From positions 2,356,001 to 2,420,000 of the forward strand of contig NZ_CP115396.1 in the NCBI RefSeq assembly GCF_027625995.1: 64,000 nt of DNA, given 5' to 3'. The notes under the pieces are model-generated. The model worked only from the letters and a program-made list of their open reading frames with translations. It searched no databases and had not been told where the DNA came from. The translations under genes were made by a program, and so were the position numbers. Source of the DNA: Hymenobacter yonginensis (GTDB lineage: Bacteria > Bacteroidota > Bacteroidia > Cytophagales > Hymenobacteraceae). Below are positions 38,125-53,546 of this stretch, one piece after another (position 1 is the stretch's first letter; every line of letters begins with the position of its first letter).

Positions 38125-38523
38125 GCTGGCGGGTGGCTGGGTGGCGCGTATTTATTGTTCAGGGGACACAGGATCTGCATTGTTTTTTTGCCGACGACCC
38201 TGAAAAAGGTGAGGTGCCTTCATGGCGGAGCAGGCACCAGAAGCGGGCTGATGACTTGTGCAATAAGCGTACAGGGCAGCCTCAAAAAACCCATTTCCAG
38301 CCAATTGAGCTATTTTTGCGGCTTGCTTTTGCTTCGCTCAGACACTAGTTTTGGTTGCATCCCCAGGGAGCTTTAGCCGTGCAAGCGAGCATGGCCCCTG
38401 CAGCCGGAAGTATAGCCGCTGCCACAAGCAGCTTTTACAATTTTTGAGTGAGAAAGTGAGGCAAATAGGACGGGGCTTCCCTGTCCTGTTTCTCGCTGGC
38501 CTCCTGCTCATCTATCTCCCTTC
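38125..38523. other. Intergenic region upstream of the beta-glucan locus
   Basis: About 400 bp with no credible gene; the short ORFs have no coding character. TATTTTTG at 38311-38318 matches the -7 consensus but has no spaced TTG, so it is only a weak promoter candidate for GH5. Confidence 0.5.
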
Positions 38524-40377
38524 ATGCGTCAATTGGTTAGAGCCGGCCGCTTTCCCGTGCGGCTGCTGTACTGTTTTGTGCTGCTGCTAGCTGGCAGCGA
38601 GCCGTGGGCCACACCTGCCGCCGCTCAGCCCCTGAGTTTACTGCACACCAAAGGCCCCGCGCTGCTCGACGCCCAGAACCGGCCCGTCGTGCTGCGCGGC
38701 ATCAACGTGGGCGGCTGGCTGCTGCAGGAAAGCTACATCCTCCGCACCGACTCTTTGAACTCCCAGGGTCGCATTCAGCAGGCCATGCTGCGCACCATGC
38801 CCGAGGCCGACGTAGAGGACTTCTACCGCCGCTACCGGGCCGGCTTCATCACCAAGGCCGACATTGACTTCATTGCCCGGCAGGGCTTGAACTGCGTGCG
38901 GCTGCCACTGCACTACGACCTGTTTCTGACTGGTGCTCAGCGCCGCGCCCGCACCCGCGCCCTGCAGAACCCGCGCCACGTGGATGCCTACGTCCAGTCG
39001 CTGAGCACGTGGTACGACCAGAACCAGCTGTTCACGGACGCCCAAAATTTGGATGGTTTCCGGCTGATTGATGACGTGCTGCGCTGGTGTGCCGCCAACC
39101 GGCTCTACGTGGTGCTCGACCTGCACGCCGCCCCCGGCGGCCAGGGCGCCGACCGCAACATCAGCGACTGTCTGGTGCCGCTGGACCTGTGGAAGCGCCG
39201 CGATGCCAAGGGCCGCCTCCTCTACCAGGACCTCACGGTGCGGCTCTGGCAGCAGATTTCCCGGCGCTACCGCACCGACGCCCGCGTGGCGCTCTACGAC
39301 TTTCTCAACGAGCCCAACGGCCTGAGCACCGCCAACGGCCTGGCCGGCGACAACTCCGAGCTGAGCGAGCTGTACAGCCGCCTGATTGACGTGGTGCGCG
39401 CCCAAAATGACCAGCACGTGGTGCTGCTGGAAGGCAACGGCTACGGCAACGAGTACACCAACCTCACGCCCGACAAGCTGCGCACCCCGCACAAAGGCAA
39501 CCTCATGTACAACGCGCACCGCTACTGGTGCCCCAACGACACCACCGCTTCCGACGCCAATTCACTGCAAATCAATCTTATTCACAATCTGGTGACTTTC
39601 CGGGAGCGGTGGCAGGTGCCGGTGTGGGTGGGCGAAACCGGCGAGAACTCCAACGAGTGGTTTGCCGCCGCCGTGCAGGCACTCAACCAGCAGAACATCG
39701 GGTGGTGCCACTGGACGCTGAAGCGGGTGGATGGCCGCACCAGCCTACTGAACGTGCCCCGCTACGGCAGCCTGCTGACGCCGGCCGGACGCATGGCGCT
39801 GCTACGCAACAGCGAGTTCCGGAACTGTACCGTAAACACCGATGTGGTGGCGGCCCTCACCCGCCCCACGGCCGCCCCAGCGGCATTTGTGCCGCACGTA
39901 GTGCCCGGCACCATCCAGGCGGCCGACTACGACCTGGGCCGCCTGGGCCAGGCCTACTCCGACACCTACGCCACCCGCACCGACTTCCGCAACCACACGC
40001 CCCACAACGCCGGCGACGCCTACCGCAACGACGGCGTGGATATTGAGCCCATGCCCGACAGCACTGCCACTATCCTAGCCGTCAGCCATATGGAAGCCGG
40101 CGAGTGGCTGAGCTACACCGTAACCGTGCCCCAAACCACGGCCTGCGCCGTGCAGCTGCGGGCCCGCAACCCGACTGCTGCCGCCGCCCAACTGCTTGTC
40201 AGGGTGGATGGGCAGGTGTTGGCGGGGCAGGTGACCGTACCCGGTGGCGGCTGGCAAACGCTGCCGGTCGGCAATGTGCAGCTGGCGGCGGGCACGCACA
40301 CGATGCAGCTGTACGTGGAGCAGCCGGGTGCCGTGGTGAGCTGGCTACAATTTGTGCCGCTGGCCGGTCCTCGCTAA
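38524..40377 (+). CDS. GH5 endo-beta-glucanase with C-terminal CBM6
   Basis: The 617-residue secreted enzyme has a signal peptide ending PAAAQ (about 35). The GH5 (beta/alpha)8 domain runs from about 40 to 435: VLRGINVGGWLLQES, the N-C-V-R-L-P segment, acid/base E263 in FLNEPNG and nucleophile E371 in WVGETGEN. A CBM6-like beta-sandwich (about 465-615) begins IQAADYD and contains the GEWLSYTVTV and HTMQLYVE motifs. Its partners suggest beta-1,3- or mixed-linkage glucan as substrate; the GH5 subfamily is not determined. No T9SS domain or lipobox is present. It precedes the receptor gene by 40 nt. Confidence 0.88.
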   Translation: MRQLVRAGRFPVRLLYCFVLLLAGSEPWATPAAAQPLSLLHTKGPALLDAQNRPVVLRGINVGGWLLQESYILRTDSLNSQGRIQQAMLRTMPEADVEDFYRRYRAGFITKADIDFIARQGLNCVRLPLHYDLFLTGAQRRARTRALQNPRHVDAYVQSLSTWYDQNQLFTDAQNLDGFRLIDDVLRWCAANRLYVVLDLHAAPGGQGADRNISDCLVPLDLWKRRDAKGRLLYQDLTVRLWQQISRRYRTDARVALYDFLNEPNGLSTANGLAGDNSELSELYSRLIDVVRAQNDQHVVLLEGNGYGNEYTNLTPDKLRTPHKGNLMYNAHRYWCPNDTTASDANSLQINLIHNLVTFRERWQVPVWVGETGENSNEWFAAAVQALNQQNIGWCHWTLKRVDGRTSLLNVPRYGSLLTPAGRMALLRNSEFRNCTVNTDVVAALTRPTAAPAAFVPHVVPGTIQAADYDLGRLGQAYSDTYATRTDFRNHTPHNAGDAYRNDGVDIEPMPDSTATILAVSHMEAGEWLSYTVTVPQTTACAVQLRARNPTAAAAQLLVRVDGQVLAGQVTVPGGGWQTLPVGNVQLAAGTHTMQLYVEQPGAVVSWLQFVPLAGPR

Positions 40378-40417: not shown

Positions 40418-42469
40418 ATGCCAACCCTGCCCTCCCTGATTTCCCGTTTCAGCCTACTAGCCGCCGCCCGCCTGCTGTGGGTGCTGGTCGTCCTGGGTGC
40501 CGCCGGCCACCAAGCCCGGGCCGAGCGCCCCCTCCCGCTGGATGCCCGCCAGCCGGAAATTTTCGTCAGCCCCCTCAACTACAGCATTCTCGAAGACCCC
40601 ACGGGCCAGCTCACGCTGCGCGATGTGCAGCAGCCCCGCTATGCCAGCCGGTTTGTGTCGGGGGCGCGGGTGGCCACCAACATGGAGCACCCCGGCTCAG
40701 CCTACTGGCTGCGCCTGACGGTGCAGGCCATCGGCCCGCAGCCCCAGCACTGGTACCTGGAGATGTTCGACTCCCACCTCAACGACATTTACTTTTTCCC
40801 CAAGGCCCCCGCTGAACAGGGCCGCATCCATACCGGGGCCGACCGTCCGTTCACGACCCGGCCTTACCGCTACAAAAACTACCTGCTGCAACTGCCAATA
40901 GCCGACAACCAGCCGCATACCTACTACCTGCGGCTGCAGTCCAATTCGCGCACCAGCTTCCTGTCGAAGATGCGCACCGAGCAGGGCATTGCCGAGCACT
41001 TCCAGCTAGAATATGGGCTGCTGGGTGCCTTCTATGGCATGCTGCTCATCATGATTATCTACAACTTCTGCCTGTTCTGCTTCACCGGCGAGCAGACCTA
41101 TCTGCGCTATGTGCTGTACGTGCTCAGCTGCAGCCTAGTGTTTCTATCGGAGGATGGGCTGGGATTTCAGTACCTGTGGCCCGGGCAGCCGTGGCTCAAT
41201 CGGGTGGTGGAAGTGGCGTCGGCGCCGCTGCTGCTGCTCACCTTCGGCTACTATGCGCGCCAGTTTCTGGACACGCCCCAGCGTCTGCCCCGCTACGACC
41301 AGTGGCTGCGGGCCGTGGTGCTGCTGAGCGTGGCGGCCCTGCTGCTCGACGGCATCTGGTGGAAAACCGGGATGGGCATGGGCCTGTATCTGCTGCCCTA
41401 CGGCATGCTGTTTTTCGCGGCGCTGCGCGTGTGGCAGCGCGGCTTCCTGCCGGCCCGCTTTGTGCTGCTGGCCCACTCGCTGGTGGCCGTCAGCGTGTTG
41501 TTTCTGATTTTGCGCAAGCTGGGTATTCATACGTTCACCAACACCTACACGGTATATAGCATGAACGCCGCCTTTGTGGTGGAAGTGGTGGTGCTGTCGT
41601 ATGCGCTGGGTGAAAAAATCCGCGCCATTCAGCACGCCACGCTCAAGGCCCAGCACCGCCTCGTGAAGCAGCTGCGCAAAAAGCATGACGTGCAGCACCG
41701 ACTGGTAGAGCAGCTGCGCCAGAACGAGGAGCTGAAAGACCAGCTGAACTCGGAGCTGGAAAACCTGGTGGCCCAGCGCACGGCCGAGCTGCAGCGCCAG
41801 GGCGAAACAATTGCCTCCCAGAACCGCGACCTGGTGCAGGCCAACGGGCTGCTGGCCTTGCAGTCGGCGGCCATTGAAAAGCTGAACACCGACCTGCAGC
41901 GCGACCTGCAGAAGGCCCAGACGGCGCGGGTGCTCTCGCAGGAAGTGGATTTCGGCGAGTTCAGTCAGATCTACCCCGACAAGGAAGCCTGCCTCACCTA
42001 CCTCGCCGACCTGAAGTGGGCCCACGGCTACCACTGCCGCAAATGCGGCCACGACAACTACTGCGAAGGCCGTGAGACGCTTTCGCGCCGCTGCACCCGC
42101 TGCCGCTACGTGGAATCGGCCACAGCCTACACGCTGCTGCAGAAATGCAAGTTTTCGATTGTGAAGGCATTTTATGCGGTGTTTTTGTTGCACACGCACA
42201 ACGGCAGCTACTCGGCGCAGGAGCTGTCCCGGGTGCTGGATCTGCGGCGCGCCACCTGCTGGAGCTTCAGCCATAAAGTGCTGGAAGCCATGCGCCGCCA
42301 GCCCACCGACCCCGCCGGCGAGGACAGCTGGACCCGCCTGCTGCTGGACGACAGCGGCACCGAGCCAGACGAGCCCGCCGAGGAAGAATTGGCAGTAGCG
42401 GGCGAGGCAGGCCCGGGTTTGGAGCACGAACCAGCCAAACCCAAAAACAAGCAAAAAAAAGTGGGCTGA
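40418..42469 (+). CDS. 7TM-DISM receptor fused to an IS1595-like zinc-ribbon/HTH domain
   Basis: The 683-residue protein has a signal peptide (1-35), a periplasmic 7TMR-DISMED2-like sensor (about 45-190), seven transmembrane helices (about 198-398), a long coiled coil (about 400-500) and a cytoplasmic domain. The last reads DKEACLTYLADLKWAHGYHC, then a four-Cys zinc ribbon C540-x2-C543-x15-C559-x2-C562, then a helical module with SAQELSRVLDLRRATCWSFSHKVLEAM. This matches the N-terminal DNA-binding half of IS1595-family transposases, without the DDE domain. No kinase, GGDEF or LytTR domain is present. The start is the ATG at 40418. It lies between GH5 and susC, so a glycan-sensing transcription regulator is inferred. 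A terminator overlaps its 3' end. Confidence 0.85.
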   Translation: MPTLPSLISRFSLLAAARLLWVLVVLGAAGHQARAERPLPLDARQPEIFVSPLNYSILEDPTGQLTLRDVQQPRYASRFVSGARVATNMEHPGSAYWLRLTVQAIGPQPQHWYLEMFDSHLNDIYFFPKAPAEQGRIHTGADRPFTTRPYRYKNYLLQLPIADNQPHTYYLRLQSNSRTSFLSKMRTEQGIAEHFQLEYGLLGAFYGMLLIMIIYNFCLFCFTGEQTYLRYVLYVLSCSLVFLSEDGLGFQYLWPGQPWLNRVVEVASAPLLLLTFGYYARQFLDTPQRLPRYDQWLRAVVLLSVAALLLDGIWWKTGMGMGLYLLPYGMLFFAALRVWQRGFLPARFVLLAHSLVAVSVLFLILRKLGIHTFTNTYTVYSMNAAFVVEVVVLSYALGEKIRAIQHATLKAQHRLVKQLRKKHDVQHRLVEQLRQNEELKDQLNSELENLVAQRTAELQRQGETIASQNRDLVQANGLLALQSAAIEKLNTDLQRDLQKAQTARVLSQEVDFGEFSQIYPDKEACLTYLADLKWAHGYHCRKCGHDNYCEGRETLSRRCTRCRYVESATAYTLLQKCKFSIVKAFYAVFLLHTHNGSYSAQELSRVLDLRRATCWSFSHKVLEAMRRQPTDPAGEDSWTRLLLDDSGTEPDEPAEEELAVAGEAGPGLEHEPAKPKNKQKKVG

Positions 42470-42495
42470 GGCCCCTTTTTTTTTGCTTGTTTTTT
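42443..42495 (+). terminator. Terminator overlapping the receptor's stop codon
   Basis: A long inverted repeat pairs AAAAACAAGCAAAAAAAA with its complement, closing on GTGGGC/GCCCC around the TGA stop (42467-42469). The coding sequence for the Lys/Gln-rich tail is the left arm. It separates the receptor gene from the SusC operon. Confidence 0.88.
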
Positions 42496-42641
42496 ACCCG
42501 TTAGCTGGGCCTGAGGGGAATATAGGATTTGGAAGGACTAACGGCGAAATGCTCCTTAAAAGTGGGTGCCGTAAGCGTACAGGGATGCGTGCGATGTAAG
42601 CGAAAATCGGCCTTCCCGCTATTCCTAGCGGGGTTTCACGC

Positions 42642-42673
42642 TTGATTTTTAAGAAAAATGGCGGATACCTTTG
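42642..42673 (+). promoter_or_regulatory. Candidate promoter of the SusCD operon
   Basis: TTG (42642-42644), 21 nt, and TACCTTTG (42666-42673) resemble TTG-N19-TAnnTTTG. Transcription from here gives a leader of about 370 nt before susC; a GCGGCCCAA triplication lies in it at 42912-42936. Confidence 0.55.
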
Positions 42674-43052
42674 ATCATCCCCCCCGCCCTTATGATCCGT
42701 TCTGCCCCCTTCCCGTGCCTGCCTCGGGTGAGTGAACACCCACTCCTTTGCCCGGCAACCCGCGCCGACAGGCGCCTGCCCGGCACCCACGCCCGCGCAT
42801 CACCTGTGCGCCGGCCTTGAGCTCTTATGCAGGGCTCCTGCCTGCTCCCTTTTTCCGGCTGAGTGCCCGGCGCACCTCCCTCTCTGCGGGTACCCGATAG
42901 CCGGCAAACCGGCGGCCCAAGCGGCCCAAGCGGCCGTGAGTTACTACTCACCCCGGAAGCCTACCACGTTTTCCTGTGCGACTTTCCGCCCTGCTCGCAG
43001 GGCATTCGGACCGTCGTTTTCAAATTCCCACACTCTTCCCCACTTCCTACAC

Positions 43053-46000
43053 ATGAACCGCAATCAATACTCGTATCTGGGGTTCCGGCGCGTGGTGCCT
43101 CTCGCAGCCTATGGGCTGCTGAGCCTGGCGTCGCCACTGGCTGCCCAAGCCGCTCTGGCGCCCGATGCCAGCCTGGCCTTTGTGGCCGACGTTCCGGTTT
43201 CGGGACGGATTACGCAGCGTAACGGCGACGGCCTGCCCGGCGTGACGATTATCGTGCAGGGAACCACCATCGGAACCAGCACCGACTCCAACGGCAACTT
43301 CTCGCTGTCGGTGCCCGAAGGCAGCACTCTCATTATCAGCTCCATCGGCTTTACGCGCCAGGAAGTTCGCATCACTGGTGCCAACCCTTCCCTGAACGTA
43401 GTGCTGGCGGACGACGCCAAGGCCCTGAGCGAGGTAGTAGTGGTCGGCTACGGCACCCAGGAGCGCGGCAGCGTGACGGGCGCTATTTCGTCGGTGGGGG
43501 CTGCGGAAATCGTGCGCCAGCCGGTGGCCGATGCCACGCAGGCCATCCAGGGCAAGGTGTCCGGCGTAACGGTGATATCGAACGGCGGGGCGCCCGGTGG
43601 GGCCTCCGGTACGGCCGTGCGGGTGCGCGGCATCACGTCGGCCGGCAACAACAACCCGCTGTACGTGGTCGACGGCTTCCCGCTGCCCGACGGCGGCGAC
43701 AACCAGCTCAACGCCATCAGCCCCAACGACATCGAGTCGATTGACATTCTGAAGGACGCTTCGGCTACGGCCATCTACGGGGTACGCGCCGCCAACGGCG
43801 TGGTCATCATCACCACCAAGCGTGGCAAAGCCGGCCGCACCAACGTCAACCTCGACGTGTACCGCGGCGTGCAGACCGTGGCCCGCCGCCTGGACTTGCT
43901 CAGCGCCTCGGAGTACGCCGTTATCAACAACGAAAGCCGCCTGGCCAAGGGCCTGCCCATTGTGGTAGACAAGCTGCGCGACCCGGCTTCGCTGGGCGAA
44001 GGCACCGACTGGCAGGATCTGGTGTTTCGCCGAGCTCAGATTCAGAACTACTCCCTCTCGGCCACCGGCGGCAGCGAAAAAGCCCGCTATGCCGTGTCGG
44101 GCACGTATTTCCAGCAGGACGGTATCATCATCGGCACCAACTTCGAGCGGTTTACGATACGGGCCAACGGTGACGTGCAGATTGGCCGCATGCTGAAGCT
44201 GGGCAACAACATCCAGCTCACGCACCTGGAAGACCGGCAGGTAACCACCAACAGCGGCGAGTATGGCACGGTACAGCAGATGCTGCGCATCCCGGCCACC
44301 GTGCAGCCCTACCGGCCCGATGGCTACTGGTACCAGCCCAGCTCGGGCGCTGACAACTTCATCGAGGAAAACCCACTGGCCAGCGCCCTGATCAACAACC
44401 AGAAGTTCACGCGCAACCGGGCCCTGACCACGTTCTTCGCTGAGCTGGAGCCCCTGAAAGGCCTGCGCTTCCGCACCAACGTGGGCGTCGACTTCATCTT
44501 CGACAACTTCAACCGCTTCACGCCCAAAGGCCCCGAGCTGGCTGGCTACACCCAGCGCTACTCTACGGCCAGCGCCGAAGCCAGATCCAGCTACGCTCCC
44601 ACGTATCTGATTGAAAACACGGCCACTTACGACCGCCTGTTTGCCGATAAGCACCAGCTGACGGTATTGCTGGGCCAGTCGGCGCAGGAGTTCAACTTCA
44701 GCAACGTAGTGGCTAACCGCCAGGGCTACCTGCGCAACGACCTGCAGGTAATCAACGTCGGCCCCATCAACTCGCAACTCAGCAACGAAGGTGCCATTAG
44801 CCCGCCCCAGCGGCTGGCCAGCTACTTCGGGCGCGTGAACTACGAGTTTGCCGGCAAGTACCTGCTTTCGGCCGTGGCCCGCTACGACGGCTCGTCGGTA
44901 TTCCCGCCCGGTGAGAAGTTCGGCTTCTTCCCCGGCGTATCGGTGGGCTGGCGCATTTCGGAAGAAGGCTTCCTGGACGGCAACAGCACCATCAGCAACC
45001 TGAAGCTGCGCGCCGGCTACGGCAAAGTGGGCAACCCCCTGAACGCGGGTCGCTTCGCCTCGCTGTACACCATCAACTTCGGCGCCATTTACCCATTCGG
45101 GCCCGATGGCACCATCAACACCGGGGCCGCGCCCACCCGCCTCGCCAACCCCGAGCTGCGCTGGGAAAACAATAACCAAACCAACGTGGGGGTGGATGTG
45201 GGCTTCCTCGACAACCGCTTCGAAGCCAGCCTCGACCTCTACAACCGCAACTCGCCCAACCTGATTGCGCCGGTACCGCCGTCTTTGGTATCGGGTACGT
45301 TTGAGTCGGTGAACACCAACGCAGCTTCGGCCTACAACCGGGGCATCGACTTCTCGTTTACCTCGCGCAACGTGCAGGGTAGCGGGCAGGCTTTTAGCTG
45401 GACCACCCTGCTCAACATCTCAGCCTATAAGACGCGGCTGGAGTCGCTGGGCTTGGGCGTACCGTACAACGGGCCCAACTTCCTGAGCAACAGCGCCGTG
45501 GTTCGCTACGATGTTAACCAGGCCTTTGGCTCGTTCTACGGTTTCGTGGCCGACGGCCTGTTCCAGACGGCCGACGAGGTGAATGCCGCCCCCCGGCAGG
45601 AAACCGGCACCGCCCCCGGCGACATCCGCTTCAAGGACCTGAACGGCGACGGGGTCATCACGGCGGCCGGCGACCGGACGTTCATTGGCAACCCCAACCC
45701 CGATTTCACCTACGGCATCACCAACACGCTGGGCTTTAAGGGCTTCGACCTAAGCTTCTTCATCCAGGGCGTGCAGGGCAACGATGTGTACAACATCAAC
45801 CGCTTCATCACGGAAAGCGCCCTGTACGGATCCAACAACGGCACCACCCGCGTGCTGAACCGCTGGACCGGCCCCGGCACCAGCAACGACGTGCCCCGCG
45901 CCATCGACGGTGACCCCAACACCAACCTGCGCGTGTCGTCGCACTTCGTGGAAGACGGCTCCTACGTGCGCCTCAAGAACCTGACGTTTGGCTACACGCT

Positions 46001-46181
46001 GCCGCAGACTCTGCTGAGCCGTATTTCGGCCAGCCAGGTGCGCTTTTACGTGACGGCCCAGAACCTGGCCACGCTCACCAAATACACTGGCTACGACCCC
46101 GAAGTAAGCCCCAGCGGCATCGACCTGGGCGTGTATCCGCAGGCCCGCGTGTTCATGGGCGGCCTCAATATCGGGTTCTAA
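43053..46181 (+). CDS. SusC/RagA-family TonB-linked outer membrane transporter
   Basis: The 1042-residue outer-membrane protein starts at ATG 43053 (signal peptide ending AAQA). A longer frame from 42732 translates leader sequence and is rejected. Residues 49-125 form a carboxypeptidase-regulatory-like domain. The TonB-box-like segment VVVVGYGTQ (about 130) precedes the plug, which shows VRVRGITSAGNNNPLYVVDGFPL and SIDILKDASATAIYGVRAANGV. The rest is a 22-strand barrel ending FMGGLNIGF. It imports oligosaccharides with SusD and TonB energy. It heads the operon after a 370-nt leader and is followed by susD after 24 nt. Confidence 0.94.
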   Translation: MNRNQYSYLGFRRVVPLAAYGLLSLASPLAAQAALAPDASLAFVADVPVSGRITQRNGDGLPGVTIIVQGTTIGTSTDSNGNFSLSVPEGSTLIISSIGFTRQEVRITGANPSLNVVLADDAKALSEVVVVGYGTQERGSVTGAISSVGAAEIVRQPVADATQAIQGKVSGVTVISNGGAPGGASGTAVRVRGITSAGNNNPLYVVDGFPLPDGGDNQLNAISPNDIESIDILKDASATAIYGVRAANGVVIITTKRGKAGRTNVNLDVYRGVQTVARRLDLLSASEYAVINNESRLAKGLPIVVDKLRDPASLGEGTDWQDLVFRRAQIQNYSLSATGGSEKARYAVSGTYFQQDGIIIGTNFERFTIRANGDVQIGRMLKLGNNIQLTHLEDRQVTTNSGEYGTVQQMLRIPATVQPYRPDGYWYQPSSGADNFIEENPLASALINNQKFTRNRALTTFFAELEPLKGLRFRTNVGVDFIFDNFNRFTPKGPELAGYTQRYSTASAEARSSYAPTYLIENTATYDRLFADKHQLTVLLGQSAQEFNFSNVVANRQGYLRNDLQVINVGPINSQLSNEGAISPPQRLASYFGRVNYEFAGKYLLSAVARYDGSSVFPPGEKFGFFPGVSVGWRISEEGFLDGNSTISNLKLRAGYGKVGNPLNAGRFASLYTINFGAIYPFGPDGTINTGAAPTRLANPELRWENNNQTNVGVDVGFLDNRFEASLDLYNRNSPNLIAPVPPSLVSGTFESVNTNAASAYNRGIDFSFTSRNVQGSGQAFSWTTLLNISAYKTRLESLGLGVPYNGPNFLSNSAVVRYDVNQAFGSFYGFVADGLFQTADEVNAAPRQETGTAPGDIRFKDLNGDGVITAAGDRTFIGNPNPDFTYGITNTLGFKGFDLSFFIQGVQGNDVYNINRFITESALYGSNNGTTRVLNRWTGPGTSNDVPRAIDGDPNTNLRVSSHFVEDGSYVRLKNLTFGYTLPQTLLSRISASQVRFYVTAQNLATLTKYTGYDPEVSPSGIDLGVYPQARVFMGGLNIGF

Positions 46182-46205: not shown

Positions 46206-47744
46206 ATGACTATTTCCAAATACGCTTGCGGCGCTTTCCTGCTGTCGCTGGGTTTGCTCACCGGCTGCGGTGAGAAATTCCTGGAAGAAACCCCTTCCGA
46301 CCAGATTACGGACGCCAACTTTTACCGCACCCAGGACGACGCCATTCAGGCCGTTACGGCTTCCTACAGCGAGCTGACCAAGGAAGGCCAGTACAACCTG
46401 GCGCTGTGGGCCATGGACATCATGGCCGACATTTCCACCACCGGCGGCGGCGGCGGCAGCGACGGTATTGAGTACACCCAGCTCGACGACTACAACATCC
46501 CGACCACCAATACCGTGGCCAACCGCCTCTGGGGGGGCTGCTTCATCGGGCTGCAGCGCGCCAACATAGTATTGCTGAAGGTGCCCAACATTGAGGGCAT
46601 GGACCCTGCCATCAAACAGCGCTGCCTGGGTGAGGCGCAGTTCCTGCGGGCCAAATATTACTTCGACCTGGTGCGGGCCTTCGGCGACGTGCCGCTGTTC
46701 ACGACTCCACCCTCCGGGCCGGCGCAGGTGTATATCCCGCGCACGCCGGCTGCCGACGTGTACCGCCAGATCGAGCAGGACCTAACCGATGCCTTCAACA
46801 ACCTGCCGCCTTCCTACAGCGGCGCCGACCTGGGCCGGGCCACCAAGTGGGCCGCCGCCGGCCTGCTGGCCAAGGTGTACCTGACCGACGGCAAGAAAAC
46901 CGAAGCCGCCCAGTGGGCCCGCCAGGTCATCAACAACTCCGGTAAAAGCCTGTGGCCGAACTACGGCGACAACTTCAAGATTGAAAACGAGAACGGCCGG
47001 GAGTCGCTGTTTGAGGTGCAGTATGTGAGTGGCCGCAACGGCTACGAGCGCAACAACGTGGGTTTCAGCGGCAACGAGTTCTTCGCCCCCCGCGGTTCCG
47101 GCACCACGCCGGCCGGTGGTGGCTACGGCTTCAACATTCCGGAGCCCGACTTCGTGAGCGGCTACGAAGCCGGCGACACGCGCAAAGCCGTGACCATCTG
47201 GGTACCCGGCGACCCATATCCGGCCGGCAGCGCCACGCCGGCGCAGCTGCCCCAGGCCCCTGGCTCGCCGTTTGGCTTCAACTGCAAGAAGTGGTTCATC
47301 GGTAAGGTGAACACCAACATCTGGGACTCGGGCCTCAACATTCCGGTGCTGCGCCTGGCCGATGTGTACCTGATTCTGGCCGAGGCCGTGGGCCCCACCA
47401 CCGAGGGTCTGGACGCCATCAACAAGGTGCGCCGCCGCGCCTTCGGCTTGCCCATCAACACGCCTTCGGCCGCCCGCGACCTGACGGCCGCCACGCCCAA
47501 CTTCAACGACGCGGTGCTGCGGGAGCGGAAGTACGAGCTGGCCTTCGAGTTTGACCGCTGGTTTGACCTGAAGCGCTACGCCGGTACCCCCAACGGCCTG
47601 GTGCCACGCATGACCCAGCAGTCGGCCTTCCTGCGCACGCTCAACATTCAGCGCGGCGTGCCCACCGACAAAAACCTGGTGCTGCCCATTCCGCAAAGCG
47701 AGATGGACGCCAATCCGGCGCTGGTGCAGAACCCCGGCTACTAA
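46206..47744 (+). CDS. SusD/RagB-family glycan-binding lipoprotein
   Basis: The 512-residue outer-membrane lipoprotein has a lipobox LLTGC (C21). TPR-like helices and the SusD fold are recognisable from FLEETPSDQITDANFYRTQDDA, the YFDLVRAFGDVPL segment, RLADVYLILAEAVG and the LRERKYELAFEFDRWFDLKRY motif. The C-terminus NPGY is typical of the family. It forms the lid of the SusC pore and binds the glycan; its specificity, presumably beta-1,3-glucan, is inferred from neighbours. It lies 24 nt after susC. Confidence 0.94.
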   Translation: MTISKYACGAFLLSLGLLTGCGEKFLEETPSDQITDANFYRTQDDAIQAVTASYSELTKEGQYNLALWAMDIMADISTTGGGGGSDGIEYTQLDDYNIPTTNTVANRLWGGCFIGLQRANIVLLKVPNIEGMDPAIKQRCLGEAQFLRAKYYFDLVRAFGDVPLFTTPPSGPAQVYIPRTPAADVYRQIEQDLTDAFNNLPPSYSGADLGRATKWAAAGLLAKVYLTDGKKTEAAQWARQVINNSGKSLWPNYGDNFKIENENGRESLFEVQYVSGRNGYERNNVGFSGNEFFAPRGSGTTPAGGGYGFNIPEPDFVSGYEAGDTRKAVTIWVPGDPYPAGSATPAQLPQAPGSPFGFNCKKWFIGKVNTNIWDSGLNIPVLRLADVYLILAEAVGPTTEGLDAINKVRRRAFGLPINTPSAARDLTAATPNFNDAVLRERKYELAFEFDRWFDLKRYAGTPNGLVPRMTQQSAFLRTLNIQRGVPTDKNLVLPIPQSEMDANPALVQNPGY

Positions 47745-47780: not shown

Positions 47781-48590
47781 ATGTTCATGAAAACCCACTT
47801 TCATAAAGCAGCCCTGCTACTGCTGAGCGGCTCCCTGCTGCTGGGCGCCTGCAAGAAAGACGACACCGGCAGCCTCGACGGCGCGGTGCCGGCTTCTGAT
47901 TTCACCTTCACGACGCGCACCGTAGGCTTCACCACCGAAGTCACCTTCACGGCCACCAACACCGACGCCTTCCTCTACCAGTGGGAGTTCGGCGACGGCA
48001 CCGTAGGCTCCGGCCAGCGGATTGTGCACACCTACTCGGCCAGCGGCCCGGTAAAGCCCCGCCTGGTAACGGCCTACCGGGGCGGCACCAGCGTATCGGC
48101 CCAGAAGGAAATTGTGCTGCCGCCGGTGTTCGAGTTGGTGAAGACGGTGCTCACGGGCGGCTCGTCGCGCACCTGGGTGCTCGACGACACCCAGAACGCG
48201 CCCATCATCGTGGGCCCCAACGACTCCGACCCCGGCGGATACTTCTCCGGCAGCCCGGCGGGCTCACTGCCTGCCTGCCAGGCCGACGATGAATTCACGT
48301 TCAGCACGGCCAACGTGTACACCTACGACGCCAAGGCCCAGACCTTTGTGGCTGGCGGCGGCGGGTGCCAGGCGCCGCGCTCCGGCACCTCGGCCTTCAC
48401 CTTTGGGGCGCCCACGGGCCCCGGCCTGGCGCAGTTCGTGCTGGCCCGCACCGGCGCCTTCATCGGCGTCACCGACGCGCCTGACCTAGTGTACCGCGTG
48501 CTGTCCATCGACAACCAGCGCATGGTGCTGCGCGCCGGCCGCCCCACGGCAGGCGTAGTGTTCACGATGAAACTGCGCGTGAAGCCGTAA
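47781..48590 (+). CDS. PKD-domain surface lipoprotein (putative glycan-binding)
   Basis: The 269-residue protein has a lipobox LLGAC (C24; start at 47781 or two codons later). A PKD domain follows (about 40-115) with FLYQWEFGDGTVGSG and IVHTYSASGPV. The rest is beta-rich with SRTWVLDDTQNAPIIVGP near 130, which resembles binding modules of glycan surface proteins. It occupies the position of a SusE-type surface glycan-binding protein in the locus, 37 nt after susD. Its ligand is inferred. Confidence 0.75.
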   Translation: MFMKTHFHKAALLLLSGSLLLGACKKDDTGSLDGAVPASDFTFTTRTVGFTTEVTFTATNTDAFLYQWEFGDGTVGSGQRIVHTYSASGPVKPRLVTAYRGGTSVSAQKEIVLPPVFELVKTVLTGGSSRTWVLDDTQNAPIIVGPNDSDPGGYFSGSPAGSLPACQADDEFTFSTANVYTYDAKAQTFVAGGGGCQAPRSGTSAFTFGAPTGPGLAQFVLARTGAFIGVTDAPDLVYRVLSIDNQRMVLRAGRPTAGVVFTMKLRVKP

Positions 48591-48692: not shown

Positions 48693-49562
48693 ATGTCTTT
48701 TTCCACTTCTTCGTGGGCGCGGGCTGGCCTGGGGCTCAGCCTGGCGCTGAGCACGCTGGCGGCCTGCACCTCCGATCCGCCCAAGCCCGTGCTGCCACCC
48801 GCCGCGCCGCCCGCCGTCAACTCCGAATCGCGCGACTACGCCGCCTACACCAAGCTTGTCTGGAGCGACGAGTTCGACACCGGCTCGCTCGACCTGACCA
48901 AATGGGGCTTTGACCTGGGCGCCGGCGGCTGGGGCAACAACGAGCTGCAGACCTACACCAACGCCCCGGAAAACGTGACGACCACTGCGGGCGGCACCCT
49001 CGTAATCAAGGCTATCCGGCCGGCCTCCAACAGCCCGGCCTACACCTCGGCCCGCATCCTCACCAAGGGCAAGCAGACCTTCGTGTTTGGCCGGATTGAC
49101 GTGCGGGCCAAGATTCCGAAAGGCAAGGGCATTTGGCCGGCCATCTGGATGCTGGGCGCCGACATCGACCAGAACAACTGGCCCAAGTGCGGCGAAATCG
49201 ACATTATGGAACTGCGCGGCAGCAAACCCAAGGAGCTGATTTCCACGATGCACTTCGCCAACAGCGCCGGCACCCGCGAGTTCCGCACGACCACCAAAGT
49301 GCAGGCCACGGACCTGTCCGACGACTTCCACGTGTACTCGGTGGTGCGCAGCCAGGACCAGATCCGCATGTTCCTGGATGGCCAGCAGTACCTGACCTTC
49401 AGCAAGAGCGACGTTGGCTCAGCCCCCTACCCGTTCAACAATCCGTTCTTTGTGATTCTGAACATTGCGGTGGGTGGCGACTTCGACGGCAACCCCGACG
49501 CCAGCACCACTTTCCCGCAGCAGATGGAGGTCGACTACGTGCGGCACTACCAGTACCAGTAA
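48693..49562 (+). CDS. GH16 laminarinase-like lipoprotein, first copy
   Basis: The 289-residue protein has a lipobox TLAAC (C25), so it is probably anchored on the surface. The GH16 fold shows VWSDEFDTGSLDLTKW (57-71), GWGNNELQTYT, GIWPAIWMLGADI and the catalytic E168-I-D170-I-M-E173. The nucleophile and acid/base residues are intact. Sequence around the loops suggests endo-beta-1,3-glucanase. It is followed after 46 nt by a second GH16; the two share the plan but not the anchor. Confidence 0.9.
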   Translation: MSFSTSSWARAGLGLSLALSTLAACTSDPPKPVLPPAAPPAVNSESRDYAAYTKLVWSDEFDTGSLDLTKWGFDLGAGGWGNNELQTYTNAPENVTTTAGGTLVIKAIRPASNSPAYTSARILTKGKQTFVFGRIDVRAKIPKGKGIWPAIWMLGADIDQNNWPKCGEIDIMELRGSKPKELISTMHFANSAGTREFRTTTKVQATDLSDDFHVYSVVRSQDQIRMFLDGQQYLTFSKSDVGSAPYPFNNPFFVILNIAVGGDFDGNPDASTTFPQQMEVDYVRHYQYQ

Positions 49563-49608
49563 TGCCGCCCGGCAGCCGGCGCCTGCGTCGGCACTCACGG
49601 TCTTTTCT

Positions 49609-50484
49609 ATGGCTATGAACTTACGAATGCCTTTCCCCCGCCTGGCCGCCGTGGCTGCCACGGCAGGCCTGCTGCTTTGCGGCCGTGCCGCCAGCGCCCA
49701 GACCAAGCCCGCCAAAACTGCCAAGTCGCCTAGCTACAGCTTCAAGGAGCTGATCTGGAGCGACGAATTCGACAAACCCGGCTTGCCCGACTCGCTGAAG
49801 TGGACCTACGACGTGGGCGGCACCGGCTGGGGCAACAAAGAGGAGCAATTCTACACCAAGGCCCGCCGCGAAAATGCCCGCGTCGAAAATGGCCACCTCA
49901 TCATCGAGGCCCGCAAGGAAGCCCTCAACGACAAGAACGCCTACACCTCGGCCCGACTGGTGTCGCGCGCCAAGGGCGGCGGCAGCCTCACCTACGGCCG
50001 CGTAGAGGTGCGGGCCCAGCTGCCGGCCGCTCGCGGCACCTGGCCCGCCATCTGGATGCTGCCCGACGATTGGAAGTACGGCGACAAGAGCTGGCCCGCC
50101 AACGGCGAAATCGACATCATGGAGTACGTGGGCTACCGGCCCGAAGTGGTGCAGGCGTCCACGCACAGCAAGAAGTACTACTTCCGCCTCAACAACCAGA
50201 AAACCGACTCCGTCCGCGTGCCGACGGCCACCACGGCCTTCCACGACTACGCCATGGAATGGACGCCCGAAACCATCACGGTGTTCGTCGATAACAAGCC
50301 CTACTTCACCAGCCGCAACGAGCACACCGGCTGGGAGGCCTGGCCCTGGGACCATCCGTTTCACCTGCTGCTGAACGTGGCCGTGGGCGGCGAGTGGGGC
50401 GGCCTCAAAGGCATCGACCAGACGGCCTTCCCCCAACGGATGCTTGTGGACTACGTGCGCTTCTACAAAATGCGCCAGCGCTAA
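49609..50484 (+). CDS. GH16 laminarinase-like enzyme, second copy
   Basis: The 291-residue protein has a normal signal peptide ending AASAQ (about 31) and no lipobox, unlike the first GH16. Motifs are LIWSDEFDKPGLPDSLKW, GWGNKEEQFYT, GTWPAIWMLP and the catalytic E167-I-D169-I-M-E172. Identity with the first copy is only moderate, so they are paralogues with likely different locations or cleavage preferences. It is presumably a periplasmic or released endo-beta-1,3-glucanase. A start two codons later is possible. Confidence 0.9.
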   Translation: MAMNLRMPFPRLAAVAATAGLLLCGRAASAQTKPAKTAKSPSYSFKELIWSDEFDKPGLPDSLKWTYDVGGTGWGNKEEQFYTKARRENARVENGHLIIEARKEALNDKNAYTSARLVSRAKGGGSLTYGRVEVRAQLPAARGTWPAIWMLPDDWKYGDKSWPANGEIDIMEYVGYRPEVVQASTHSKKYYFRLNNQKTDSVRVPTATTAFHDYAMEWTPETITVFVDNKPYFTSRNEHTGWEAWPWDHPFHLLLNVAVGGEWGGLKGIDQTAFPQRMLVDYVRFYKMRQR

Positions 50485-50574
50485 CCGCCGGCGCCTCACC
50501 CTGCCTTTTTTCAGCGTAGCGGCCCTTTTCGGAGGGTCTGTTGCCACGCTTTGCCCTCTATCTACCACACGACT

Positions 50575-51045
50575 ATGGGCCGCCAAAGACAGTTTTTCCG
50601 GTTGTCGGCCGCCGAGCAGCAGGAGCTGCAGCACTACCTGCTGCTGCCCGGGCTGCTGCGCCGCCAGACCAACCGCGCCCACACCTTGCTCGACTGGCAC
50701 GCCGGGCTGTCCGCCGCCGAATCGGCCGAGCACCTGGCCATGACTGAGGGCCGGGTGTATGCCCTGCGGCGGGCTTACCAGCGGCAGGGCCTCACGGCCT
50801 ACCTCAACACCCAGCCGGGCGGTGGGGCACCCACTAAGCTCACGCCCGCCGTGGAAGCTGCGCTGCTGGCGCTGCTTTCGCGCCGCAGCGCCGACGCGCC
50901 TCGCCGCTGGACGCTGCGGCAGCTGGCCGCCTACCTCGTGGCCCAGGGCCACACCAAGTCCATTTGCCCCGTGACGGTGGGCAAGGCGCTGCACCGGCTG
51001 CAGCAGTTGCTGCCGACTGCTGCAGCCGGCTTGCGGGCTGCCTGA
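50575..51045 (+). CDS. Small double-HTH protein of IS630 transposase type
   Basis: The 156-residue protein starts at ATG 50575 (an in-frame TTG at 50551 is less likely). Residues about 10-75 form a homeodomain-like HTH (LSAAESAEHLAMTEGRVYALRRAY), and a G-G-G-A-P-T-K-L-T hinge leads to a second winged-helix module (TLRQLAAYLVAQGHTKSICP). This is the layout of the N-terminal DNA-binding half of IS630/Tc1-type transposases; the DDE domain is absent and no inverted-repeat ends flank the gene. It lies 90 nt after a GH16 and 125 nt before GH3, in the same direction. A regulatory role in the locus is inferred. Confidence 0.75.
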   Translation: MGRQRQFFRLSAAEQQELQHYLLLPGLLRRQTNRAHTLLDWHAGLSAAESAEHLAMTEGRVYALRRAYQRQGLTAYLNTQPGGGAPTKLTPAVEAALLALLSRRSADAPRRWTLRQLAAYLVAQGHTKSICPVTVGKALHRLQQLLPTAAAGLRAA

Positions 51046-51170: not shown

Positions 51171-53546
51171 ATGACTTTCTCCCGCTTTGTTGTGCTTACG
51201 CTGCTGACCAGCCTGGCCGCGCCCACTGCCATCCACGCCCAGAAGGCCCGACCCCGCCAGCCGGCCCGCACCGCCAAAACTGCCCGGCCGGCCGCAGCCC
51301 CGCTCACCGAAGCCACCATTGCCCGGCAGGTAGATGCCCTGCTGGCCCAGATGACGCTGGAAGAAAAAGTGGGCCAGATGACCCAGGTGACCATCGACGC
51401 CGTGACGCAGGGCAAGAACCGCTACAGCTCCGACGAGCCGCTGGCCCTCGACCCCGCCGACCTGCAGAAGGTGCTCGTGGACTACAAAATCGGCTCGGTG
51501 TTGAACTCGGCCAACAACCGCGCCCGCACGCCCGAACTCTGGTACACCACCGTGAAGCAGATGCAGGACGTGGCCACCCAGAAAACCCGCCTCAAAATCC
51601 CGATTATCTACGGTATTGATGCCGTGCACGGCGAAACCTACACGGCCGGGGCCACCATGTTTCCGCAGGAAATAGCGCAGGCTGCCAGCCGCAACCGTGC
51701 CTTGGTGCGCCGCGGCGCCGAAATATCGGCCTACGAAACCCGCGCCAGCAACATCCCGTGGGCCTTTTCGCCGGTGCTGGATCTGGGCTCCGATGCCCGC
51801 TCGCCCCGGCAATGGGAAACCTTCGGCGAAGACCCCTACCTAATTTCCGAGCTGGGCGTGCAGATGGTGCGCGGCTACGAAGGCGACCCGAACAATATCG
51901 GCGACCCGACCAAAGTTGCCTCCAGCATCAAGCACTTTCTGGGCTACCAGGTGCCGCAGTCGGGCAAGGACCGCACCAACGCCTACATCTCCGACGAGGC
52001 GCTGTATGAGTACCACGTGCCGCCGTTCCGGGCCGCCGTGGCCGCCGGCGCCCACACCATCATGATCAACTCGGGCCTCATCAACGGGGTGCCCATGCAC
52101 GCCAACTACGCCCTGCTCACCAAGCTGCTGAAGCAGGATCTGGGCTTCAAGGGACTGGCCGTGACCGACTGGCAGGACATCGAGAACCTCTACACCCGTG
52201 ACCATTTCGCCAAAGACCAGAAGGACGCCATCCGGCTAGCCATCAACGCCGGCATTGATATGTCGATGGTACCCTACCAGTACGAGCAGTTCTGCGACAA
52301 CCTGGTGGCGCTGGTGAAGGAAGGCCAGGTGAAGCAGGAGCGCATTGATGATGCCGTACGCCGGGTGCTGCGCGTGAAATACGCCCTCAACCTGTTTCAG
52401 CAGCCCAACACCAACCGCCAGGATTACCCGCTGTTCGGTAGCAAGGAGCACGAGCAGGCCAGCTACCAGATGGCCGCCGAAGCCATTACGCTGCTCAAGA
52501 ACACCGACAACATTCTGCCCCTGAAGAAAACCAGCAAGGTGCTGCTGGCCGGCCCCAACGCCAACTCCATGCGCACCCTGAACGGCGCCTGGACCTACTC
52601 CTGGCAGGGCGAGAAAACCGAGGAATTTGCCCAGCAGTACAACACCATTCTGGAGGCGGTGCAGAAGGAAATCGGGGCCCAGAACGTGCAGCACGTGCCC
52701 GGCGTGAGCTACAAGATGGACGGCAAGTACTACGAGGAGTACGCCGACAAGCTGGACGAAGCCGTGGCCGCCGCCCGCAACGTGGACGTGGTGCTGCTCT
52801 GCCTCGGCGAAAACTCCTACGTGGAAAAGCCCGGCGACCTGAACGACCTCTACCTCTCCGACCTGCAGACCCAGCTGGCCCAGCGCCTGCTGGCCACCGG
52901 CAAGCCCGTGGTGCTGGTGCTCAACGAAGGCCGCCCGCGCGTCATCAGCCGCATCGAGCCCGGCATGAAGGCCGTGGTGCAGACCTACCTACCCGGCAAC
53001 TTCGGCGGCGACGCCCTGGCCGACATCCTGTTCGGCGACGTGAACCCCTCCGGCAAGCTGCCCTACACCTACCCGCGCTACCCCAACGCCCTCATTTCCT
53101 ACATCCACAAGTACGCTGAGGAGCAGAGCAAGGCCGAAGGCGCCTACAACTACGAGGCCGATTACAACCCGCAGTACAAGTTCGGCGACGGCCTGAGCTA
53201 CACCACCTTCCGCTACGCCAATCTCACCGTCGACAAGGCCTCGCTGCCCAAAACTGGCCAGCTTACGGTATCGGTTCAGGTGACCAACAGCGGCGCCCGC
53301 GCCGGCCAGGAAGCCGTGCACCTCTACTCCTCCGACCTCTACGCCAGCCTGGTAGCGCCCGACATGCGCCGACTGCGCCGCTTCGAGAAAGTGAACCTCA
53401 AGCCCGGCGAAACCCGCACCGTCACGTTCACGCTGCCCGTTTCGGAGCTGAGCTACGCCGGCCCCGACGGCAAGCCGGTGCTGGAAGCCGGTGAGTTTGA
53501 GCTGCGCATCGCCGACCAGACCACCAAGTTCATGGTAACCGAATAG
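51171..53546 (+). CDS. GH3 beta-glucosidase
   Basis: The 791-residue enzyme has a signal peptide ending IHAQ, consistent with the periplasm. The N-terminal (beta/alpha)8 domain shows the substrate-binding DAVHGETYTAGATMFPQ and the nucleophile D333 in AVTDWQDIENL. The alpha/beta sandwich domain (about 440-640) has the GENSYVEKPGDL segment with the candidate acid/base Glu, and a fibronectin III-like domain ends the protein (about 690-790). It should release glucose from beta-oligosaccharides imported by SusCD. It ends the locus, and a terminator follows. Confidence 0.9.
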   Translation: MTFSRFVVLTLLTSLAAPTAIHAQKARPRQPARTAKTARPAAAPLTEATIARQVDALLAQMTLEEKVGQMTQVTIDAVTQGKNRYSSDEPLALDPADLQKVLVDYKIGSVLNSANNRARTPELWYTTVKQMQDVATQKTRLKIPIIYGIDAVHGETYTAGATMFPQEIAQAASRNRALVRRGAEISAYETRASNIPWAFSPVLDLGSDARSPRQWETFGEDPYLISELGVQMVRGYEGDPNNIGDPTKVASSIKHFLGYQVPQSGKDRTNAYISDEALYEYHVPPFRAAVAAGAHTIMINSGLINGVPMHANYALLTKLLKQDLGFKGLAVTDWQDIENLYTRDHFAKDQKDAIRLAINAGIDMSMVPYQYEQFCDNLVALVKEGQVKQERIDDAVRRVLRVKYALNLFQQPNTNRQDYPLFGSKEHEQASYQMAAEAITLLKNTDNILPLKKTSKVLLAGPNANSMRTLNGAWTYSWQGEKTEEFAQQYNTILEAVQKEIGAQNVQHVPGVSYKMDGKYYEEYADKLDEAVAAARNVDVVLLCLGENSYVEKPGDLNDLYLSDLQTQLAQRLLATGKPVVLVLNEGRPRVISRIEPGMKAVVQTYLPGNFGGDALADILFGDVNPSGKLPYTYPRYPNALISYIHKYAEEQSKAEGAYNYEADYNPQYKFGDGLSYTTFRYANLTVDKASLPKTGQLTVSVQVTNSGARAGQEAVHLYSSDLYASLVAPDMRRLRRFEKVNLKPGETRTVTFTLPVSELSYAGPDGKPVLEAGEFELRIADQTTKFMVTE

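Follow-up and report, generated by a model that had tools for sequence, protein, structure and literature searches.

Bacteroidota consume glycans mainly by means of polysaccharide utilization loci (PULs). Receptors of the 7TMR-DISM type, reportedly named in a 2003 paper, usually end in kinase, cyclase or phosphatase domains, and ChiS is known for its chitin regulon. Three Bacteroidetes-specific types of PUL regulator are named in the accessible part of a 2013 comparative study, in which SusR, a kinase-less membrane regulator, provides a precedent for PUL control from the membrane (PMC3878776). The accessible part of another paper lists 7TMR-DISM among the domains found together with the ChiS DNA-binding domain (PMC8092284). 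Here we describe a receptor gene in a 64,000-nucleotide stretch of Hymenobacter yonginensis (NZ_CP115396.1, positions 2,356,001 to 2,420,000; "the window" refers to this whole stretch). The gene encodes a 7TMR-DISM receptor whose output domain is related to the DNA-binding half of IS1595 transposases. This receptor is quite probably a one-component transcription regulator that is anchored in the membrane, controls a beta-glucan (laminarin-like) regulon and directly binds a conserved element found behind its own gene. The receptor and its parts are located as follows.

40418..42469, + strand: receptor open reading frame (ORF), 683 amino acids, with IS1595-type DNA-binding output (ORF listing, Pfam, NCBIfam)
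40583..40960, + strand: 7TMR-DISMED2 periplasmic sensor, residues 56-181 (Pfam PF07696, E 3.4e-27)
41012..41614, + strand: 7TMR-DISM_7TM membrane domain, residues 199-399 (PF07695, E 1.3e-42, model positions 2-204 of 205)
41615..41944, + strand: charged helical linker, probable coiled coil, residues 400-509 (by reading the sequence; conserved in alignment A5)
41978..42109, + strand: IS1595-type zinc ribbon (Pfam; Cys 540, 543, 559 and 562 within 42035-42103)
42146..42307, + strand: helical part resembling a helix-turn-helix (HTH), residues 577-630 (NCBIfam IS1595 model positions 2-57, hhalign)

An earlier sequence-only reading of the window had taken this protein for a 7TMR-DISM sensor, and both PF07695 and PF07696 match it; the membrane region was checked against 7TMR-DISM with the E value of 1.3e-42 given above. 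The seven transmembrane helices of that reading are upheld by the Pfam seven-helix model, whereas hydropathy alone separates six. An N-terminal hydrophobic segment and six membrane segments in residues 197-397 (two overlapping peaks merged) were seen in the hydropathy profile; the seventh helix gave no separate peak at the threshold used and is based on the Pfam model. The domain order fits a membrane protein with a periplasmic sensor and a cytoplasmic DNA-binding domain (Pfam, hydropathy; predicted sides). Kinase, cyclase, receiver and LytTR domains had no Pfam match in the receptor up to E = 1, in line with the claimed lack of kinase, cyclase and LytTR domains. The same limit applies to the features of hybrid two-component systems (HTCS), namely histidine kinase, receiver and AraC-type domain. 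Likewise, no Pfam match to sigma-70 regions or an anti-sigma domain was found in the receptor, nor any match to the DDE catalytic domain (PF12762). The predicted ribbon motif C-x2-C-x15-C-x2-C is present as counted, at residues 540-562, and its four cysteines are invariant across the 64 rows of the family alignment A6. Residues 521-564 match Pfam Zn_ribbon_IS1595 (PF12760, E 1.8e-5), and residues 577-630 match only positions 2-57 of the 215 in NCBIfam transpos_IS1595 (NF033547, E 7.7e-8), below the 75-bit cut-off of that full-length model. Only 53 residues follow the HTH-like part.

The output domain is akin to the DNA-binding half of IS1595 transposases and lacks a catalytic domain. When the profile of the 64 family members was compared with a profile of 14 Bacteroidota proteins of the IS1595 type (one of them truncated at a contig end, another changed in its catalytic motifs), hhalign gave a probability of 99.9 and E 4.8e-35 over 120 columns, which span the ribbon and the helical part. 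Zn_ribbon_IS1595 was matched by 63 of the 64 members and the start of the NCBIfam IS1595 model by all 64 (E ≤ 0.01 in both cases), while control IS1595-type proteins showed both ribbon and DDE (PF12762) matches (5/5). Two IS1595 transposases from a genome of the same order share 31 and 35% identity with the output domain. A match to the N-terminal half of IS1595 transposases had been claimed, and a lack of profile matches for residues 515-625 had been named as what would speak against it; the profiles do match, and Pfam ribbon, NCBIfam model and hhalign agree. In an unrooted tree of 68 output domains (133 columns, long branches), a branch with support 99/98 parts 43 domains of seven-helix proteins from 13 transposases and 10 paralogues, the latter from one genome and with altered catalytic motifs. 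Two proteins on the receptor side are not receptors: one is a stand-alone ribbon ORF, and the other has a single helix. The tree would fit a single capture of the domain. A search of solved structures returned one match, at chance level (E 0.51).

Several further proteins carry a similar ribbon. Genome G268 (L214-L223) encodes at least 10 divergent IS1595-like proteins of about 290-335 amino acids, whose ribbon-HTH scores lie near those of the receptor family. Acidic motifs of their relatives (VEVDE, TD) are changed by eye, and L113, the one that was scanned, still matches the DDE model. Their genes are dispersed among metabolic genes, with some close to SusC/SusD, and the proteins are perhaps a soluble set of tamed transposases. 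At L102:6992-7699 (- strand), a 236-amino-acid protein with one hydrophobic segment has the same ribbon-HTH-like end; the divergent gene at L102:5265-6926 (+ strand) encodes a similar helical stretch and, by eye, a SpoIIE-type phosphatase-like C-terminal part. A stand-alone ribbon-HTH-like ORF of 137-151 amino acids (start uncertain), without membrane or DDE part, was seen at L224:1197-1607 (- strand).

The receptor belongs to a widespread family with a conserved genomic place. Among 99 relatives of the window's closest genome (itself included), 83 match the receptor at E ≤ 0.001, many via the 7TM part alone. The genus survey comprised 72 genomes (61, 10 more, and G517), of which 61 have full-length orthologues (52/61, 8/10 and G517); 10 lack the receptor and in one (G004) it is truncated. 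G037 and G038 were scored as receptor-less, possibly owing to an assembly gap, as their SusD proteins (56 and 58% identity) lie on contigs that start in or near susC; the completeness of G037 is 82%. In 51 of 53 receptor loci of the genus, susC follows downstream in the same direction, with a glycoside hydrolase (GH) family 3 gene between in 16 of the 51. Of the two exceptions, L073 is a contig end and L083 (G004) a deletion: here, the receptor gene is joined after about residue 498 to the middle of a GH16 gene, and it looks as if one deletion removed ribbon, susC, susD and part of GH16. In 10 fresh genus genomes the receptor was predicted from a close SusD orthologue; it was found in 8/8 with and 0/2 without one.

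Outside the genus, a scan of named genomes yielded at least 572 relatives, and the best 80 loci, some of them on short contigs, were analyzed. They include Pedobacter, Mucilaginibacter, Dyadobacter, Chitinophaga, Siphonobacter and Filimonas, and all 80 have the ribbon motif. SusC lies within 1.2 kb downstream in 51 of the 80 (gap median 296 bp, range 237-642). Among the remaining 29, five have SusC/D elsewhere in the stretch, 20 only GHs of the three families sought, and four none; SusC, SusD and GH labels at these loci and at the other loci described below come from home-made hidden Markov models (HMMs), with Pfam checks for part of the genes behind distant element copies. The survey for the same fusion and its neighbours, as the sequence-only reading had proposed, thus found the fusion in 61/72 genus genomes and the best 80 loci outside, often with adjacent susC. 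Replicons of Persicobacter, Flammeovirga and Aureibacter match 67-89% of the receptor length at 27-31% identity. In four annotated plasmid records with long matches, the only label is 7TM diverse intracellular signaling domain protein. Across 395 evenly sampled Bacteroidota genomes, 50 had a ribbon-HTH match at E ≤ 1e-12; open frames of at least 600 amino acids account for 11 such matches, 4 of these in the genus, and the rest fall in frames of transposase size or smaller. On one large replicon of Persicobacter sp. JZB09 (CP012852.1) we noticed 14 receptor-matching places, some perhaps of the 7TM part only; if these are paralogues, there are possibly many operator specificities.

The gap between receptor gene and susC contains a conserved element, which recurs once more in the window.

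42487..42676, + strand: promoter/operator element after the receptor gene (HMM built without the window, E 4.7e-23; alignment A8), with TTGTTTTTTA at 42487-42496, TAAGCG at 42572-42577 and 42597-42602, a -33-like TTG at 42642 and a -7-like TACCTTTG at 42666-42673
38180..38332, + strand: second copy, before the GH5 gene and thus before the GH5-receptor pair (HMM E 2.6e-15), with TTGTTTTTT at 38180-38188, core TAAGCGTA at 38264-38271 and a possible -33 TTG at 38323; a possible -7 TAGTTTTG at 38346-38353 lies just outside the HMM match

These were the only two matches in the 64 kb when the window was scanned with an HMM whose training set left out both the window and the two sequences closest to it. 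The leader 42496-43052, proposed earlier as the target, does begin with promoter and upstream sites; the element itself spans 42487-42676 and has its second copy before GH5. Since it stands on both the GH5-receptor side and the susC side, autoregulation of the receptor through the two copies is suggested. Across 52 genus gaps behind the receptor (51 loci and the window), TTGTTTTTTA is present in 48, and shuffles reach at most 3. If two of its T positions are allowed to vary, 50 gaps contain it, and in all 50 a TAnnTTTG box lies 175-180 bp further on; a -33-like TTG starts 24 bp before this box in 39 of them. Between TTGTTTTTTA and the promoter lie CGTGTGnngTAAGCGTA and an AAAA block. The distance from core to -7 is 93-94 bp in 46/52 gaps, and the upstream spacing is constant within a few bases. 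T-rich runs beside the receptor stop codon are terminator-like.

The co-occurrence of receptor and element was quantified with R1, a sequence-only HMM from 47 genus sequences (E ≤ 0.01; stricter filters, more than 40 genomes searched). R1 matched 62 of the 72 genus genomes, with 1 to 8 matches each: the 61 receptor genomes and G004. None of the 10 receptor-less genus genomes was matched. Training sequences came from 46 genomes, and R1 was found in all 15 receptor genomes outside training, which are close kin of the training set (G001, G003, G013, G052, G056, G059, G100-G105, G108, G109 and G517). In G004, where a ribbon protein is absent at E ≤ 1e-5, there are still four copies, which we read as leftovers of a recent deletion. 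A simple pattern, TTGTTTTTTAN{60,75}TGNNNTAAG, occurred in 45/72 genus genomes and in 0/11 without intact receptor, although some matches look like chance.

Copies away from the receptor locus were mostly followed by glucan genes. For 20 distant R1 matches (those listed down to E 2.2e-7, minus G060:C4:430602, which lies in L245), the next sizeable codirectional gene was GH16 in nine cases, GH5 in four, AP_endonuc_2 in six and MFS in one; in L241, a 153-amino-acid ORF is closer to the element than the MFS gene that was scanned. AP_endonuc_2 is followed by a GMC oxidoreductase in six loci (L238, L240, L242, L248, L249, L251); GMC and gluconate dehydrogenase subunit 3 were confirmed by Pfam in L238 and assigned by sequence likeness in the other five. 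These copies suggest that the glucan regulon extends to sugar oxidation. At the end distal to susC, L045, L046, L053 and L055 show extra element matches upstream of the receptor, beside an extra GH16-like gene. The idea that the receptor is a neighbour of any SusCD pair was rejected, as another SusCD locus found in the genus (L226, L227, L231) has a different ORF; at E ≤ 1e-3 the element HMM had no match in these three loci. Their SusC/SusD pair is accompanied by a divergent conserved ORF (MNTRQEVLDFVHHG...), a putative regulator that by eye looks like a NUDIX-type one.

Related sites were found behind the receptor in other orders (Pedobacter, Dyadobacter, Chitinophaga and others). GCGTATC is present in 44 of the 51 gaps (7-mer shuffle maxima 13-16) and AAGCGTATC in 36 (9-mer shuffle maxima 5-6). 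At least two copies of CGTAT[CT] occur in 50/51 gaps compared to a shuffled mean of 0.52, and 42 successive pairs are spaced 90-92 bp apart. The aligned consensus shows GGTAnnnAAGCGTATCA twice as direct repeats, mostly at this distance, and the core AAGCGTAT is common to these repeats and the genus element. In 34/51 gaps the core lies within 60-130 bp of a -7-like box (TAnnTTTA or TAnnTTTG). Of 119 occurrences of GCGTATCA in the 1.36 Mb of the 80 loci, 75 are within 650 bp behind the receptor. A pair pattern, GCGTATCA...GCGTAT, was found in 18/19 genomes, also in coding-looking places, while the reversed-pattern control occurred in 3/19; because of these coding-looking and control matches it was replaced by R2, a model from 37 sequences of other orders. 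R2 was present in 25/25 receptor genomes (15 training sources, 10 not) and in none of 20 Bacteroidota genomes that lack a ribbon match at E ≤ 1e-12. Thirteen further R2 copies precede SusC (8), GH30 (3), GH5 (1) and GH88 (1); they are a selection, and at least three other matches, all short and partial, had better E values than its weakest member. Among the R2 loci, L259 is the receptor locus of the genome of L161, and L265 shares a contig with the receptor of L136 and is located upstream of it. In L254, L255 and L256, where the receptor is not beside susC, the element was found before susC elsewhere in the genome. L261 shows a GH5 gene and then two tandem receptor-like genes of the same family, behind one element copy. 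A single universal operator was rejected: in five loci of a more distant clade GCGTAT is absent, and TTGTTTTT occurs in three of them. The site may thus change with the output domain.

In the window, the receptor gene lies between a GH5 gene and susC, as had been claimed and as Pfam and NCBIfam matches on both flanks confirm.

38524..40377, + strand: GH5 (cellulase family) with CBM6/35-like module (Pfam E 2e-27 and 6.9e-8)
43053..46181, + strand: SusC-type TonB-dependent receptor (TIGR04056, E 1.5e-268)
46206..47744, + strand: SusD-type lipoprotein (Pfam E 3.7e-36)
47781..48590, + strand: PKD-domain protein (Pfam PKD_4, E 1e-8)
48693..49562, + strand: GH16 (Pfam E 5.2e-24)
49465..50484, + strand: GH16, second copy, ORF start uncertain (Pfam E 1.9e-23)
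51171..53546, + strand: GH3, beta-glucosidase type (Pfam E 7.2e-70)

The gene order is GH5-receptor-susC-susD-PKD protein-GH16-GH16-GH3, and the locus looks like a beta-1,3-glucan locus, with the substrate predicted from its genes. The PKD-domain protein is perhaps a surface glycan-binding lipoprotein. The sequence-only reading had found neither an extracytoplasmic function (ECF) sigma factor nor an HTCS or SusR here. This holds for the receptor and the ORFs scanned, which were part of those in the window: ten further window ORFs gave no match to ECF, HTCS or SusR-type regulators at E ≤ 1e-5. Between GH16 and GH3, at 50551-51045 (+ strand), lies a 164-amino-acid ORF with HTH_32/HTH_23, probably a piece of a transposase of what we take to be the IS630 type.

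We propose the following mechanism. A glucan breakdown product would be sensed by the periplasmic DISMED2 domain together with the seven helices, and the signal would be relayed via the helical linker to the C-terminal zinc ribbon and HTH-like module. This module, possibly as a dimer and acting from the membrane, would bind the AAGCGTAT repeats that lie about 85-105 bp ahead of the -7 box (TAnnTTTG) in the susCD promoter. It would also bind the copies of this element in front of GH5-receptor, GH16 and further glucan genes at other places. The receptor would act most likely as an activator, as suggested by sites well upstream of -33. The one-component membrane regulator with a captured transposase domain that had been put forward is supported, at the level of sequence, by susC synteny, element co-occurrence and the unlinked copies before glucanase genes. 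The broader statement is likely too, if held with less confidence: that a seven-helix receptor joined to the IS1595 DNA-binding half, probably by one capture, spread over Bacteroidota orders (Cytophagales-, Sphingobacteriales- and Chitinophagales-type genera) and drives beta-glucan regulons directly via AAGCGTAT repeats some 93 bp ahead of the -7 box. Control of beta-glucan genes by such a receptor would then appear to be common to many bacteria of soil and water.

Several observations weigh against direct regulation by the receptor. The PF12760 score is 25.0 bits on the whole receptor, just under the cut-off of 25.4; it reaches 27.6 bits when the C-terminal 188-amino-acid piece is scanned alone. 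As seen in G004, the element can outlive the receptor gene. Co-occurrence within the genus is partly shared descent, and gene and element are adjacent and can be lost together. Four of the 80 relatives have no gene of the types sought nearby, one of them on a 3.4-kb contig. Outside the genus, the 93-bp distance from core to -7 holds in only 22/51 gaps, with a looser -7 pattern, and for this reason our confidence was slightly lowered. R2 missed two of four further non-training receptor genomes (G244, G072), and the more distant clade, as described, has no GCGTAT. Finally, R1 and R2 describe the whole promoter region, whose conserved blocks, judged by sequence, may serve one protein or several.

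Alternatively, control could be indirect, with ribbon and helices contacting RNA polymerase or a soluble factor encoded elsewhere that binds the element. Direct binding is something we infer, the copies in G004 persist without a ribbon protein, and the several conserved blocks (TTGTTTTTTA, core, AAAA, promoter) suggest more than one bound factor. We nevertheless consider this account unlikely: the full ribbon and HTH-like unit that precedes the catalytic part of IS1595-type transposases is kept, the core AAGCGTAT is common to gaps behind the receptor in different orders, and the scanned ORFs of the window included no other regulator. Quite unlikely is also a proteolytic route, by which cleavage in the linker on signal would free the ribbon and HTH part to diffuse to unlinked promoters. 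Unlinked target genes would be easily reached by a soluble fragment, and a linker does join membrane part and output domain, but release is not required, since SusR, a membrane protein, binds sus promoters according to the accessible part of PMC3878776.

The element might also be unrelated to the receptor and have a general function, as a site for a nucleoid protein or as the receptor-gene terminator plus an ordinary promoter. Part of it is indeed a standard promoter (-33 TTG, -7 TAnnTTTG), and the T-rich runs at the stop codon look like a terminator. Such a general role is very improbable given that 0/10 receptor-less genus genomes were matched compared to 1 to 8 matches in each of the others, that glucan genes lie behind nearly all copies examined, that the SusCD loci L226, L227 and L231 lack a match at E ≤ 1e-3, and that the upstream spacing is constant within a few bases. 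An IS1595 insertion fused by chance to the receptor gene, without regulatory role, would account for the clear kinship with IS1595-type transposases but is extremely improbable. The 99/98 branch sets the 43 receptor output domains apart from the 13 transposases and 10 paralogues, and there is no DDE match, a fixed position, the ribbon in 80/80 best loci and an orthologue in 61/72 genomes. A recent insertion is already contradicted, and the ribbon as a fusion artefact of such an event was rejected by its conservation among relatives.

The design had been taken as singular; the family is widespread, and no published description of a receptor with IS1595-type output as PUL regulator was found among the papers listed, as judged by title and opening of the abstract, in a literature search that lay outside most subscription journals and preprints. 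This search returned no paper joining 7TMR-DISM with polysaccharide utilization, nor 7TM diverse intracellular signaling with SusC, and the 7TMR-DISM papers found made no mention of an IS1595 zinc ribbon. A widespread family with a known non-DNA role had been named as counter-evidence; the family is widespread, but no non-DNA role was found among the papers listed in the literature search. If our proposal is true, PUL regulators include a further class beside SusR, HTCS and ECF pairs, present in many genera, and a bacterial case is at hand of a transposase DNA-binding half used as the output of a membrane receptor. The chain from ligand to promoter would then lie within one polypeptide, and the predicted operator and target gene list make the receptor directly testable.

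Kinase-less membrane PUL regulators and DNA-binding domains on 7TMR-DISM are known kinds, while the combination of 7TMR-DISM with an IS1595-type output, its regulon and its operator appear to be new. Like SusR, as described in the accessible part of PMC3878776, the receptor is predicted to combine a periplasmic sensor with a DNA-binding part in the cytoplasm, in one membrane protein that regulates sus genes; by description, it differs in its 7TMR-DISM membrane part and its IS1595-type ribbon and HTH-like output. With HTCS and ECF sigma/anti-sigma pairs it would share the task of glycan-responsive susC/susD control (PMC3878776, accessible part), but it has no kinase, receiver, AraC-type, sigma or anti-sigma domain. 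The ChiS family likewise combines a DNA-binding domain with 7TMR-DISM (PMC8092284, accessible part), whereas the predicted DNA-binding domain of the receptor appears to be of another kind. Other 7TMR-DISM receptors, for example of the LadS type, have the same DISMED2 sensor and seven-helix domain; here the output is transposase-type. The zinc ribbon and following helical region align with IS1595 transposases over 120 columns, but, unlike these, the receptor has no DDE match, carries the module fused behind a sensor and occupies a conserved place in the genome.

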